Shown: piece by piece, positions 24,770 through 57,298 of the stretch
How positions within the stretch are numbered: position 1 is the stretch's first letter
Layout: each line of letters starts with the position of its first letter
Origin: Paramecium tetraurelia
Taxonomy: Eukaryota; Ciliophora; Oligohymenophorea; Peniculida; Parameciidae
Assembly: GCF_000165425.1 (NCBI RefSeq)
Contig: NW_001798959.1
Coordinates: 78,033-142,032 of the forward strand
Length of the DNA: 64,000 nucleotides
Direction of reading: 5' to 3'
Position numbers and translations under genes: made by a program
Notes under the pieces: model-generated
What the model was told of the DNA's origin: nothing
Seen by the model: the letters and a program-made list of their open reading frames with translations, nothing else
The model's database searches: none

Positions 24770-26540
24770 TCAAAACTCTAATTTTCTGATATACTCGAAA
24801 TTTTCCTTTAAAAATTCCTTTTAAAATTTTTCAGGCCACTTCAATTCTTTAGCCATGATCTAGAACACTTTCTCATACACATTAAAGATAGCATTCTAAT
24901 CTAAGAAACCCAATCTTGTTCTCCTAAACAAAATGTCCTCAGGTTTTCTAGCTTGCTCATATCTAATCTGGTACAATATTTCTCCAACAGTATGGGGAAA
25001 TTGTGGGTGCAAACTTTCCTTATTCTCTGGTTTTTCATGAACCAACTTTAAAACATCATATGCTCTGTCCCCATACGTTGTTAAGAAATAGGCTGCATAA
25101 GTTTAAGGTAAATTGAACATTTTCATCATATCTTAGATTTCCTTCTTATTATCAAATTATGTCCAATCACCAACCAATTTGGGTAGATTCTCTAACCTTT
25201 TTTAATTGTTTCCAATTAATCCTTGAACCTTATCTACTGCTTATTCACCCATCAATCTAAAGATAGTCCATTTACCACCCATAACTGATACTAAACCACT
25301 TTTTGATACTTCTATTTCATGAGTTCGTGAAACTTCTTTTGTACTGAGAGCATTGCTTTAATAAACTAAAGGTCTCACTCCACACCATTTGGATTTTACA
25401 TCTTTAGCTACTTCACTTGCATCAATTGCAAATTCATCACAAAATGATTACAATAACCATCTATATTCCTCTTTGCTTACTGTAGGATCACTAATTGCAT
25501 TATCTAATTTTCGTTCAGTTGTTCCCATTATTATATTTCCTAACCATGGTAGCAGATAGAGAACTCTGCCATCATTAGTTTTTGGTATCAAATATCCCCA
25601 CTAATGAGATCCATATTTTTGGGGCATGGTTAAGTGACTACCTGCTACTGAGACTATCCTCTTGCTAACAGTTGGATCATCCATTAAACGTAAATTATCA
25701 GCCCAACCACCAGTTGCATTAACAACACATTTGCCTTTGATTTGAAATTGTTTCTATCCAATCTTGTCAAATGCTTGAACTCCTGTGATTTTATTTTATT
25801 CATTTTTTAATAAACCTTTAACTTCAACATAATTTGCCATGTTCTACCCTTATCAAATAACTCATAATAATACCTTTTAGACTTGATGTAACTAGTAATT
25901 CTTAAACCATTCTGGCATCATTGAATTACCCATCATAATAAATGACCCCATAATTACATTTTGCAAATTTAAAATGTTATTAAATTTCTTCTTTGCCAAC
26001 TATTCTCGGAGGCTTAAAAGTATGTCCTCCTGTTTAGTAGTATAAGTAAACACAATGATAAATTAAAGACCCAAAATAATAGTAACCCAAATCAAATAAA
26101 TTTGTACAAGGTATCAAAGTAGGGAAATCTTATGTTAAATAAGAACACATTGATAAAAAGTTGGATCTCTCTCTTAATGCCTCTGCAACCAGTTACAACT
26201 TTTCCAATCTGTTTTTTTCCGACAATTGGAATACTTGTTACATGTACCTTACACCTCCATGAACTAATTTTGTCGATTTGCTTGATGCACCACTTGCATA
26301 ATCTTGCGACTCCAAAACTATTGATTTCAATCCTCTGTTAGCACAAGCAAGGGAAACACCTGCCCCAGTAGCTCCTCCCCCAACAATAATGACGTCGTAT
26401 TCATTTAATAGTGCGTCAGCTAAATGTTCCTCTCTACTCTTCAATTTATAATGGATGTGCCTTGAATCTCCAGTACTTTATAATTAGACTTTTCGCTAGG
26501 TTAAAATTGAGGCTATTGCAACAAAGGCCACTCTATTCAT
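24770..26540 (-). CDS. GPD2: FAD-dependent glycerol-3-phosphate dehydrogenase, mitochondrial
   Basis: 581 residues after removing one intron (25849-25873). The enzyme oxidises glycerol 3-phosphate to dihydroxyacetone phosphate and passes electrons to ubiquinone. Motifs: FAD-binding YDVIIVGGGATGAGVSLA, SKSTKLVHGGVRYM, YYDGQFNDARM, CVVNATGGWADNL, YLLPWLGNIIMGTTE, and GLVSVMGGKWTIFRLM. The C-terminal GlpD helical domain is present (TYAAYFLTTYGDRAYDVL, HTVGEILYQIRYEQA, LFRRTRLGFLD). About 45 residues precede the Rossmann fold, basic and hydrophobic, suiting a mitochondrial presequence. No EF-hand pair as in animal GPD2 is seen at the C-terminus, so it is not obviously calcium-regulated. Confidence 0.95.
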
Positions 26541-26972
26541 AAATAATATTTTAATAAATAGATTTTTAACTTAATAAAAACTAAAAATAGTCCAATTCAT
26601 TCTGAAAATTTAATTAATTTAATACTTAAGTATTCATCTATTATTTAAATTAATATATATAATCTTTATTTTATTAATCCTGCACTACTTTACTCTTCCA
26701 ATAACTTTTTCTAGGATTAATTATCTTATAAAATGAATTCTCATTTTTTATCAATTTTGGTTTTATAATATTATTAAAAATGATGGTTTAAGACCAACTA
26801 CTTTATAATTAACAAATTCTCCATTATAGATATAATCAAACAACTAATAATGAGGTTTCTAGCTTTTAAGCTATTATTTTCGAATGATGTATTTTTGGAT
26901 TTGTATGAGAATTAATGATTTTGGTAAAAATATATAAACTAATTTGATTTATTGAATTTTAATTAATATTTA
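26541..26972. other. Intergenic, divergent promoters, no gene seen
   Basis: AT-rich spacer between GPD2 (leftward) and selenoprotein T (rightward). I see no gene in it. Confidence 0.6.
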
Positions 26973-27542
26973 ATGGAAAAAACAATTACCATTATATTCT
27001 TGATTCTTCTAGCTATTGATTTTTTGAAACCTCAATAGAAGGAGGAATAATGGTAGGAGAGTTAAGAATAAGTTGTAAATCCTCCTACAAGGAAACATGT
27101 TAATAATGGTAAAGTTGAAATTCTCATCTAATATTGCACAAGTTGATCTTACAAAGGGGCTTTTCAATAAATGCAATAGGCAATATTTAGTTAGTTTGAC
27201 GAAAGAGTGGAAGTGATGGGAATGCCATATCCATTGGGATAAGGCAAAGAGATATTAGTGCAGCTTCTAACAATAATCCAATATGGATTTATTGCTGGTT
27301 TGATTTTCTTCGACAAATAAATTAGTGAGATGAGTAACTTTTGGAGAACTAATATAAGTCCAAGCAGATTAAAATATGGGTTTTTGGGTTATATTGCTCT
27401 TAATTTTGTTATTACCCAACTTTCATCATCAGGAGCATTTGAAATATTTGTAAATGATTAGTTAGTACATTCCAAAATCAGCAGTGGTTAGATGCCTACT
27501 ATGGATACATTATTCAGAATTGTTAGGGAAAGACTATAATGA
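26973..27542 (+). CDS. SELENOT: Selenoprotein T with in-frame TGA = selenocysteine
   Basis: 190 codons ending in TGA at 27540-27542. An internal in-frame TGA at 27144-27146 (codon 58) lies in YCTS-TGA-SYKGAF, aligning with the CxxU redox centre of the thioredoxin-like SelT family. After it the frame stays open and gives family-typical features: a membrane segment YGFIAGLIFFDKQI, a second hydrophobic helix LGYIALNFVITQLSSSGAFEI, and the conserved GAFEIFVNDQLVHSKISSGQMPT ending. The first 20 residues are a signal-like hydrophobic stretch. SelT is an ER oxidoreductase. Reading TGA as Sec needs a SECIS element, and one is present downstream (27561-27634). No intron is needed. Confidence 0.93.
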
Positions 27543-27560
27543 AAATGGTTTGAAGGATCG

Positions 27561-27634
27561 ATTATATATGAGAATGAGAGATTTTAAGTAAAGAAAGTTA
27601 AAACTTAAGATTTTGATAAATATTGTTATATAAT
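27561..27634 (+). promoter_or_regulatory. SECIS element of selenoprotein T (3' UTR)
   Basis: It begins 18 nt after the stop codon. Helix I pairs 'attatata' (27561-27568) with 'tatataat' (27627-27634). The SECIS core is ATGA (27574-27577) facing GAT (27615-27617), giving the tandem G.A/A.G pairs. Helix II is 12 bp with wobbles (27578-27589 with 27603-27614). The apical loop (27590-27602) is A-rich and supplies the unpaired AA. This matches the eukaryotic SECIS plan. It was folded by eye; no energy was computed. Confidence 0.82.
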
Positions 27635-27699
27635 TGATTCTTTTGTTATTAATTTATTAGTGATGGTCATAATAATATTGCAAATTATAAAAATTACAT

Positions 27700-29550
27700 T
27701 CATTTCTTGGTCCAGGCGTGATAGAAAGCTGAGGAGGAGGATAGGGTAAAAAAAACACAATAAAATATTGTCAGTAGTTTGGCTATGGACTTTGATATGA
27801 TATAATGGTTTCTGACTGCCATAATTAATGTAAATAACAAATTAAGAAAGGCTGCTAGAATAACCATCAATTTGAAAGCATTTTACTCAATGTCAATTAT
27901 ACTAAACAAATTGAATTTGATGGGACCTTGATTCACAAAGTTCTGTTTCAAGAAGGCAACACTAAATCCAATCAAGTTTGTAAACATTTGACCAACTACA
28001 AATAGTTTTATCATTTTTACAATAAATTCCATTCAAAGCCATTATTGCTATAAATAGTGTTATTTCTTACCATAACCTTCTTCAGCCAAAGAAACCAAGG
28101 TGATGCAATCTGGTAGTACATTCCCCATAGCAATCAAACTAAATCCCAAGTATGTTTTATTTAATTCTGTTATTATGCCCCAAAATTGAAGAAAATCTAT
28201 TAATAAACCAGATAAAAAGAATATCCACACCAATGAACCTAAAATACAATATAGCTAAAGGTAGAAGAAATATTTTGGAGGAGTTTTTTAAGATGGGATT
28301 GTAGTATTTAAGAAAATAGAAATTCCGAATCCAAACAATAATGCTAAAAAGTAAACCCACCAATGAGGGAAGCTAAAAACAACAGAAACAAAAAAAATGG
28401 ATCCTGGAATTGGAAAAACTAAAGCAATAATCAACTGATATTTACTTATTGCTTGATTTTTATCAAACTAATCTTCCTTAGGTCCAGGCAATGTGTATTT
28501 GAATACTTACATCAAAGGGTAGATGATGATTGCCCTTATCTTCTCATATAATGACAGTCTTTCCCATTTCTACTTTTAAGTTTCAATATTGGCCATTGTC
28601 AACTGCACAGCAAATCTGAACTTTTTAGCTAGCATCTTCACTCTTGCATCTCCTGTTACATAATTTAATCTAATTAGTGGAGTTGCCCATTTAACTGGCT
28701 TAGCAGCTAATTCCTATTCAGATTTCTTGTCCCAAAGATATAGCAATTTCATATCATCGAATTTCTAAGCAATCTCTAAATCATATTTAGCTTCATGAAC
28801 CGTCTGCATTCTCTCACCCAAACTATCTTTTCTACTTTTCAATATTTTGTCTCTTTCTTAATAATAGACCAAAGAAACTAGTAGCAAATATAAGACTGTT
28901 AATGAAATGCTAGAGAAGTAAGAGATTTAGCCAATAACTCCAAATACCATAATCACAAAAATAGAGATTATTTGAAATCCAACATTTCTCCAAAAATGCA
29001 CAGGATCCATTTTGATTTAAGATTTCGATGTTTTTGTTATTAGATACACGCCTATGCTGCATAAAAACTAAAAATAAATTGAACAATCTATATTTTACAA
29101 ATCCTGCTCCCATTGTGGCTCCAATATTATAATCAATCCCTCCTGGATAGGATGAAGCTACTAATGCAGTTAAAACGTCACCAGCCCCATTTCCAAATGC
29201 AAGTAATGTTACTCCTGCCATAATTTCTGAAACATCGAATTTCACTTTGACTGCTTCTAAAGATGGAATTAGAAACTCTTTTATAATCTCGCTTATTCCA
29301 TTATAGACCAAATAACCAACAAATCCAGACACAATTAAAGTGGTCTAAAAGTTAATGTTCTATTTACCATAATTGAACCATTTAGCCAACAATAACTTAA
29401 AATGCTATAATTGAAGTAGAGGAAATCATGTTAGCAATACTGTTAGGCAATGTAACATTGTTAACTATGCTCTGTTGCTGAAAGGAAATCAGCTTTTTGA
29501 CATGAAAGAACTTTCGGCTCATAAGGAGCTGCAGATAAATGTTCTAACAT
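27700..29550 (-). CDS. Na+/Ca2+ exchanger, NCLX/CCX type
   Basis: 582 residues after removing four introns (23, 31, 23 and 25 nt). It is a cation/Ca2+ antiporter with two inverted alpha repeats. Repeat 1 has GVTLLAFGNGAGDVLTALVAS near residue 109; repeat 2 has LIAMGNVLPDCITLVSLAEEG near residue 456. About ten hydrophobic helices flank a charged cytosolic loop. The GNGA-D form places it with NCLX and plant CCX rather than plasma-membrane NCX1. The second repeat has GN-x-x-x-D, so the acidic ion ligand is kept in both. The start at 29548-29550 leaves only 8 bp to the divergent MORN gene. The stop is 65 bp from the SelT SECIS. Confidence 0.88.
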
Positions 29551-43969: not shown

Positions 43970-44386
43970 TCACAATCCTTTAATTTTATCTTCAATGAAT
44001 TGCTTTTCAGCCTCGCTGACTTCAATTGCGAAATCTTTAACTGCCACAGATGAACACTTTCTTGACTTGATTTTCTTTGTCTTTGTCAAAAACTTTGAAA
44101 TTCCGATCCATTCTCCCAACAAAGCACCCTTCTCGACTCTCCAAACTGGAATTTGGAATTGCTTAGCCAAAGCAACAACTAATTTTTTGTATGTCTCCTC
44201 TGAACAATCATCAGCCAACACAATAAACTTAGCCTATTCCAATATATATCAATAATCAACTTATTTGCTTTCAATTGCTTTGCAGACTTCATGTACACCC
44301 TTTGATAATTATCCTCTATGTAAAGAAGTTTAGACAACTCTTTTTAAGGTAGTGAGCTCTTCTGATAATTATTCAACCTCTGCCAT
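43970..44386 (-). CDS. RPS12: Ribosomal protein eS12
   Basis: 129 residues after removing one 27-nt intron near 44234. The L7Ae-like fold of eS12 is recognisable: the RGQLSKGVHEVCKAIESKQ helix, then AKFIVLADDCSEETYKKLV, ALAKQFQIPVW, and the long basic tail with SRKCSSVAVKDFA. eS12 is a component of the small ribosomal subunit. The coding sequence is more GC-rich and uses CAA/CAG-poor, AAG-rich codons, consistent with high expression. An antisense 86-codon frame here is a shadow. Confidence 0.95.
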
Positions 44387-56959: not shown

Positions 56960-57222
56960 AATATTATATTATGAGAATTATTCTAAATGACAATAATTAA
57001 AAATTTACATTATAAATTCAAATTGTGTTTTTGTGTATTATTATGTTATTAATCTATTGATAAATGGGTTTATTTGCATAATTCATTTTTGATGGAATAG
57101 TTCAGTAATACTGTAAATGAGAGAGGTTTGATGGTATGATCATCTCAACCACTTGTATTGCATTTTTAACTGATGGAAGAATGTCCTGATTTAAGTGAAT
57201 TGATTAGATACTAATCAGCTTA

Positions 57223-57294
57223 GGTCGTATGGTGTAGTGGTTAGCACCTTGGACTTTGAATCCAGTGACCCAGGTTCGAGTCCTGGTATGACCT
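57223..57294 (+). tRNA. tRNA-Gln, anticodon UUG
   Basis: A complete cloverleaf of 72 nt without intron: acceptor GGTCGTA pairing with TATGACC, D-arm GTGTAGTGGTTAGCAC, anticodon arm CTTGGACTTTGAATCCAG (loop CTTTGAA, anticodon TTG), and T-arm CCAGGTTCGAGTCCTGG. Box A and box B are intact. A T-run (57299-57304) follows and serves as Pol III terminator. It decodes the ordinary CAA glutamine codon. The reassigned UAA/UAG codons need separate tRNAs with UUA and CUA anticodons, which are not in this window. Confidence 0.97.
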
Positions 57295-57298
57295 AAAC

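Follow-up and report, generated by a model that had tools for sequence, protein, structure and literature searches.

The 64 kb stretch of Paramecium tetraurelia DNA analysed here, hereafter the window, carries a SelT gene with an in-frame TGA at the CxxU position and a SECIS element 3' of the true stop; our analysis confirmed this sequence-only reading of the window. As judged by sequence comparison, the parts in place are the SelT gene, the TGA at CxxU in two paralogues, a 3' UTR SECIS with a covarying helix II, tRNA-Sec, SepSecS, eEFSec and selenophosphate synthetase. We consider it very probable that a eukaryotic SelT gene is decoded here through the standard SECIS, tRNA-Sec(UCA) and eEFSec pathway, in a ciliate using genetic code 6.

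The SelT gene and its paralogue

The features of the window are:
26973..27542, + strand: SelT coding sequence, 189 residues with Sec at 58 (code 6, TAA/TAG read as Gln)
27144..27146, + strand: in-frame TGA, read as selenocysteine (CTS-U-SYK); the same codon is TGA in the paralogue
27540..27542, + strand: terminator TGA of SelT, from frame analysis under code 6
27557..27638, + strand: SECIS element, from scanner, fold, covariance model, covariation and grammar
SECIS parts: helix I; 5' core AUGA, 27574-27577; 3' core UGA, 27614-27616
SECIS helix II: 27579-27589 paired with 27603-27613; apical loop AAAGAAAGUUAAA, 27590-27602
27700..28032, - strand: convergent neighbour, an open frame alone, without a family match

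Under code 6, the frame 26919-27146 stops at the TGA at 27144-27146, and 27147-27542 is open in the identical frame. Translation from the ATG at 26973 with TGA as U gives 189 residues that include VEILIQYCTS-U-SYKGAF and, further on, LSSSGAFEIFVNDQLVHSKISSGQMPT, with Sec as residue 58. The terminator TGA lies 396 nt 3' of the Sec TGA, and the claim that one codon, UGA, serves as both Sec and stop in SelT held up. After the terminator, the first in-frame TGA comes 85 codons later, past the SECIS. The assignment to SelT with a TGA at CxxU was upheld, and both profile searches accepted the protein, with scores of 68.8 bits against Pfam Rdx PF10262 (cut-off 22.6) and 73.1 bits against NCBIfam SelT/SelW/SelH TIGR02174 (cut-off 34.2). 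In the Rdx match, residues 50-186 cover 74 profile positions and thus contain a long insert, which we take to be what sets SelT apart from SelW. With its CxxU and its profile match with a long insert, the protein shares the features of SelT within the SelT/SelW/SelH (Rdx) family, and it presumably resembles human SELENOT. The best PDB match was 2ljk (Protein C17orf37, E 2.3e-07), in which the Sec residue aligns with a Cys, a stretch that is weak by itself (i-Evalue 0.18). A single-sequence AlphaFold2 model (mean pLDDT 40.2) was too poor to judge the thioredoxin-like fold of the family.

A search of the genome (69 Mb, 231 contigs) returned two SelT matches, the window's own gene (SelT1) and a paralogue at C224:200565-200996 (SelT2). 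The two proteins share 43% identity across 150 ungapped residues, and both conserve CxxU-SYK. Both genes read AGT TGA TCT TAC at the Sec site and both terminate with TGA. Because the Sec-site TGA is kept in a paralogue only 43% identical, it is not a chance nonsense codon. Were the window gene a decaying copy, with the TGA a nonsense mutation and the hairpin behind it a chance structure, neither the 131 open codons that follow the TGA and keep the family residues, nor the same TGA in the paralogue, nor the covariation of SECIS helix II described below would be expected, and we find decay scarcely conceivable.

Removal of the TGA by a tiny intron, of the kind common in this genome, would yield a protein without Sec. 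Introns of 23 and 24 nt are inferred in the TrxR gene on contig C24, the 24-nt one hiding a TGA, and one GTT..AG stretch of 33 nt in SelT2 lies across its TGA. Against this, no GT-AG stretch of 18-36 nt that would remove the TGA was found in the window gene; between 15 and 45 nt there are stretches of 15, 38 and 43 nt only, each beginning GTT. Such an intron would also delete the conserved CxxU-SYK and leave the SECIS purposeless, and we hold this explanation to be extremely unlikely.

The gap of 157 nt between the SelT stop and the convergent open frame contains the SECIS. Neighbouring genes on the - strand encode an FAD-dependent oxidoreductase (DAO, 63.2 bits; 25827-26633) and a sodium/calcium exchanger (30.1 bits; 28036-29241). 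The sole tRNA gene found by ARAGORN in the window is a tRNA-Gln with anticodon TTG (57222-57295, + strand).

The SECIS element and the selenocysteine machinery

A SECIS had been expected within 27543-27700 and was located at 27557-27638, with helix I beginning 14 nt past the SelT stop. The element shows the eukaryotic SECIS features of an AUGA/UGA core, a helix II and an AA opening the apical loop. The AA is placed 12 nt 3' of the core A, which is also its position in the SECIS of SelT2, TrxR C56 and Tetrahymena GPx1. The segment 27551-27638 folds into the SECIS at -16.8 kcal/mol (z -4.45), equalled by none of 200 shuffles. The 3' regions of SelT2 (z -1.06, 25/200) and SelW (z -0.46, 64/200) fold no better than shuffles.

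Our own SECIS scanner, which requires a core TGA, a helix II, AA in the loop and a 3' KGA, found a single match on the window's + strand, in the SelT 3' UTR, and five looser ones on the - strand. All three supplied elements of this genome were recovered, as against no more than 2 of the 6 Tetrahymena SECIS; the remaining four have a small stem within the apical loop, which the scanner disallows. With overlapping loci (L011, L014, L016 and L024) removed beforehand, the strict scanner gave 5 matches in 511,790 strand-bases, every one behind a gene with a candidate Sec TGA, and missed the SECIS of TrxR C200 (L019) within the searched set. The strict limit was reached by 0 of 2000 shuffles for each of three 3' UTRs, while any match at all occurred in 17, 2 and 4 of 2000.

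A covariance model was trained on SelT2, TrxR C14 and SelW only, three elements picked once all seven SECIS were known, with the window SECIS held out. Over both strands of the window, the SECIS was the top of 38 matches (27.4 bits, E 0.017; next 22.8). When 18 loci were ranked, the three trained elements were followed immediately by the held-out TrxR SECIS of C200 (rank 4), C24 (rank 5) and C56 (rank 6); the following match scored 19.2 bits. In an alignment of the seven SECIS, which was fitted to the structure and against which slid controls score far lower, each of the 10 helix II pairs has both of its bases changed in one or more sequences. In the same helix 97.1% of 70 cells are paired, and none of 500 shuffles reaches any of five measures. 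When mixed SECIS were aligned with MAFFT, the 3' arm was put in the wrong place, and the pair counts leave these alignments out. A plain grammar written after the elements were known (ATGA, a single base, 10 pairs of which no more than one is mismatched, AA, TGA) gave, as a descriptive count, 8 matches in 601,816 strand-bases, seven at the selenoprotein genes and a stray one in L049; overlapping loci L011, L014, L016, L024, L068 and L070 had been removed.

An Rfam cmscan of 26400-28400, with E values up to 10 allowed, reported no SECIS family, and a genome search with RF00031 (SECIS_1) gave no match among the 132 of 1,685 first-look candidates scored. RF00031 was also silent on the six other SECIS of this genome. 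An early motif guess used as a DNA pattern was dropped, as its two genome matches equalled the reversed control. Eleven ciliate GPx with Sec lack a detectable SECIS, as stated in PMC7409322, so finding these elements in ciliates is still an unsettled matter.

A tRNA-Sec, which the sequence-only reading had named as a check, was found in the genome: at C88:80276-80362, RF01852 scores 64.3 bits (cut-off 47) with anticodon UCA, and ARAGORN calls a tRNA-SeC (tca). Fifteen weaker matches fell below the cut-off, and all seven of those checked are tRNA-Ser. SepSecS was found at 362.2 bits with 15 in-frame TAA/TAG codons read through, which makes TAA and TAG sense codons. The eEFSec copy on contig C34 has human eEFSec as its best PDB match (244 bits), ahead of archaeal SelB (139) and the best EF-Tu (99); the bacterial selB model scores 153 bits, below its cut-off of 242. 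A second eEFSec copy on C55 scores nearly as well.

Selenophosphate synthetase (L013:883-2043, - strand) was matched in two exon pieces, one scoring 104.9 bits (E 1.2e-28) and the other 89.1 bits (E 6.8e-24), each below the 125-bit cut-off. It is a clear homologue with the Cys motif KGCGCKVP, the Cys of which we take to be the Sec position. With Cys present, the synthetase was rejected as a selenoprotein. At the same locus (L013:883-1616, - strand), a run of about 150 N bases is flanked by near-repeats of coding text, possibly an assembly duplication. PSTK is doubtful, its single match reaching 24.2 bits where the cut-off is 382. SBP2, which the sequence-only reading had also named as a check, was not recognised among the 26 of 31 L7Ae-domain matches translated and read by eye; these 26 resemble L7A, L30, S12, NHP2 or Snu13. 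The window itself holds an L7Ae-domain gene (44042-44347, - strand) that by eye is ribosomal protein S12-like, with an internal TGA that is probably intronic.

These genes bear on whether the UGA is decoded by ordinary readthrough or by a near-cognate tRNA (Trp or Cys) instead of Sec. UGA means Trp or Cys in other ciliates according to PMC4695839, and the next base differs between the two SelT codons, being T after the Sec TGA and A after the stop. However, tRNA-Sec, SepSecS and eEFSec are present, the TGA stands at the family's Sec site, and a SECIS lies downstream. We judge near-cognate reading very unlikely.

Separating Sec from stop in seven candidate selenoprotein genes

Seven candidate selenoprotein genes were found, comprising two SelT, one SelW and four TrxR, each with a SECIS and each terminating in TGA; the list is incomplete and its count a lower bound. 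The SelW gene on C195 (L072:1354-1758, - strand) contains CGG-U-GYK, has its own SECIS and scores 46.9 bits with NCBIfam (cut-off 34.2) and 41.7 with Pfam (cut-off 22.6). The genome search gave 25 TrxR matches, and a Sec tail was present in 4 of 9 TrxR-like loci examined. The tails of C24, C200 and C14, read by eye across a short intron, are GC-U-G-stop and that of C56 is GC-U-A-stop, which places the Sec and stop UGA one codon apart as UGA-GGU-UGA or UGA-GCU-UGA. The internal TGA of TrxR C24 was rejected as a Sec codon, as it sits in the inferred 24-nt intron. Nine GPx matches were found, six of which begin at profile position 1 and have no TGA. The other three (L034, L035 and L036) begin at position 28-48 and have 1, 2 and 1 in-frame TGAs, which are probably introns, and a Sec-GPx in this genome is unlikely.

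Because a 3' SECIS serves the entire mRNA, something local must spare the terminator. The distances from the Sec codon and from the stop to the SECIS core were as follows:
SelT1: Sec 427 nt, stop 31 nt
SelT2: Sec 418 nt, stop 25 nt
SelW: Sec 277 nt, stop 46 nt
TrxR C56: Sec 63 nt, stop 57 nt
TrxR C24: Sec 118 nt, stop 112 nt
TrxR C200: Sec 132 nt, stop 126 nt
TrxR C14: Sec 132 nt, stop 126 nt

In all three genes with an internal Sec (SelT1, SelT2 and SelW), the stop is less than 51 nt from the core, and in all seven genes the Sec codon is at least 63 nt from it. A minimum of 51-111 nt is needed according to Martin 1996, as cited in PMC4967479, which describes, as exceptions to this minimum, two ciliates whose Sec codon comes just ahead of the SECIS. 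At 27144, SECIS-bound eEFSec would bring Sec-tRNA and beat the release factor. At 27540, the leading edge of the ribosome would be near SECIS helix I, 14 nt past the stop with the core at 31 nt, and delivery would thereby fail, leaving eRF1 to terminate. Paramecium eRF1 is described as UGA-only in PMC4695839. We infer that SECIS position is a fair explanation of termination in SelT; a plain alternative for the short stop-SECIS gap is that 3' UTRs are short in a compact genome, with only 157 nt to the next open frame.

It had been claimed that the SECIS, or position, alone must decide between the two meanings. The positional part would fit SelT, but the statement is too blunt: position cannot account for TrxR, in which 57-126 nt separate the stop UGA from the core, and spacing was rejected as a general explanation on this ground. 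In three of the four TrxR genes, a hairpin was found directly 3' of the stop, with folding energies of -15.1, -23.4 and -23.2 kcal/mol for a 50-nt stretch and z scores of -4.27, -5.67 and -3.81; these were equalled by 0, 0 and 1 of 200 shuffles. The hairpins start 6-9 nt past the Sec UGA and 0-3 nt past the stop, and the combined features lie at:
L017:1371-1432, - strand: TrxR UGA(Sec)-GGU-UGA(stop) and hairpin
L019:2739-2800, + strand: TrxR UGA(Sec)-GGU-UGA(stop) and hairpin
L020:2745-2806, + strand: TrxR UGA(Sec)-GGU-UGA(stop) and hairpin

The hairpin after the stop is absent from TrxR C56 (L026:2083-2199, + strand; z -0.33, 65/200 shuffles). TrxR C200 and C14 are close copies. By eye, the C24 hairpin has a different loop, a double change from C-G to U-A in one pair, and another pair missing. 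The TrxR hairpin is thus seen in effectively two independent sequences, and we treat it as a lead, not a proof. An alignment of the TrxR tails misplaced the hairpin and was not used. By analogy, the hairpin may be an SRE-like element at the terminator. A speculative extension, which we put forward as rather improbable, is that each selenoprotein mRNA carries a local device separating its terminator from Sec. For an internal Sec, a close SECIS (25-46 nt) would be blocked at the terminator; in TrxR, a farther SECIS (Sec at 63-132 nt) would act with the hairpin present in three of four genes, which could favour Sec at the first UGA but melt at the second.

Relation to known systems

The combination is not new: the 2008 list in PMC2612030 gives six putative Tetrahymena thermophila selenoproteins (2 GPx, 3 TrxR and SPS2) with UGA as sole stop. 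PMC7409322 accepts five of the six and states that, as a result, every one of the 64 codons encodes an amino acid in T. thermophila. A UGA that is both Sec and the sole stop has thus already been published for Tetrahymena, and the SelT case predicted here is a further example. Shared with T. thermophila are UAA/UAG as Gln, UGA as sole stop and Sec, a tRNA-Sec and 3' UTR SECIS; the AUGA core occurs in all six listed Tetrahymena SECIS sequences. The list in PMC2612030 contains no SelT or SelW, whereas two SelT and a SelW are found here and join the UGA-only ciliate selenoproteins. It does include SPS2 as a putative selenoprotein, where the synthetase of this genome has Cys (KGCGCKVP). None of the titles and abstract openings of the literature searched describes a Paramecium SelT, and we make no claim that it is unpublished.

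In Condylostoma magnum and Parduczia, as reported in PMC4967479, UGA likewise has several meanings, including Sec via SECIS. There UGA is also Trp, and context-dependent termination is the subject of the paper; here UGA is stop and Sec only. New here are the positions of the stop, 31, 25 and 46 nt from the core in the internal-Sec genes with all seven Sec codons at least 63 nt away, and the four TrxR genes with Sec and stop UGA one codon apart, three of them with a hairpin after the stop. In these seven natural mRNAs a single codon has to serve for both Sec and stop. How a ribosome tells apart two UGA meanings at six nucleotides from each other is most sharply tested by the four TrxR genes, and the distances together with the TrxR hairpin make the Sec/stop question open to reporter experiment.

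Stem-loops (SRE) 3' of the Sec UGA are described for SELENON and SELENOT (PMC8704476) and for selenoprotein S (PMC5133445). A strong stem-loop was looked for 3' of the Sec codon of the window SelT and none was found, unlike in SELENOT (PMC8704476); a further difference from human SELENOT is that terminator and Sec codon here are both necessarily UGA. The three TrxR genes share with the SRE systems a hairpin a few nucleotides past the Sec UGA and, with selenoprotein S, a penultimate Sec UGA (PMC5133445). In contrast to those systems, the TrxR hairpin begins 0-3 nt past a UGA terminator.
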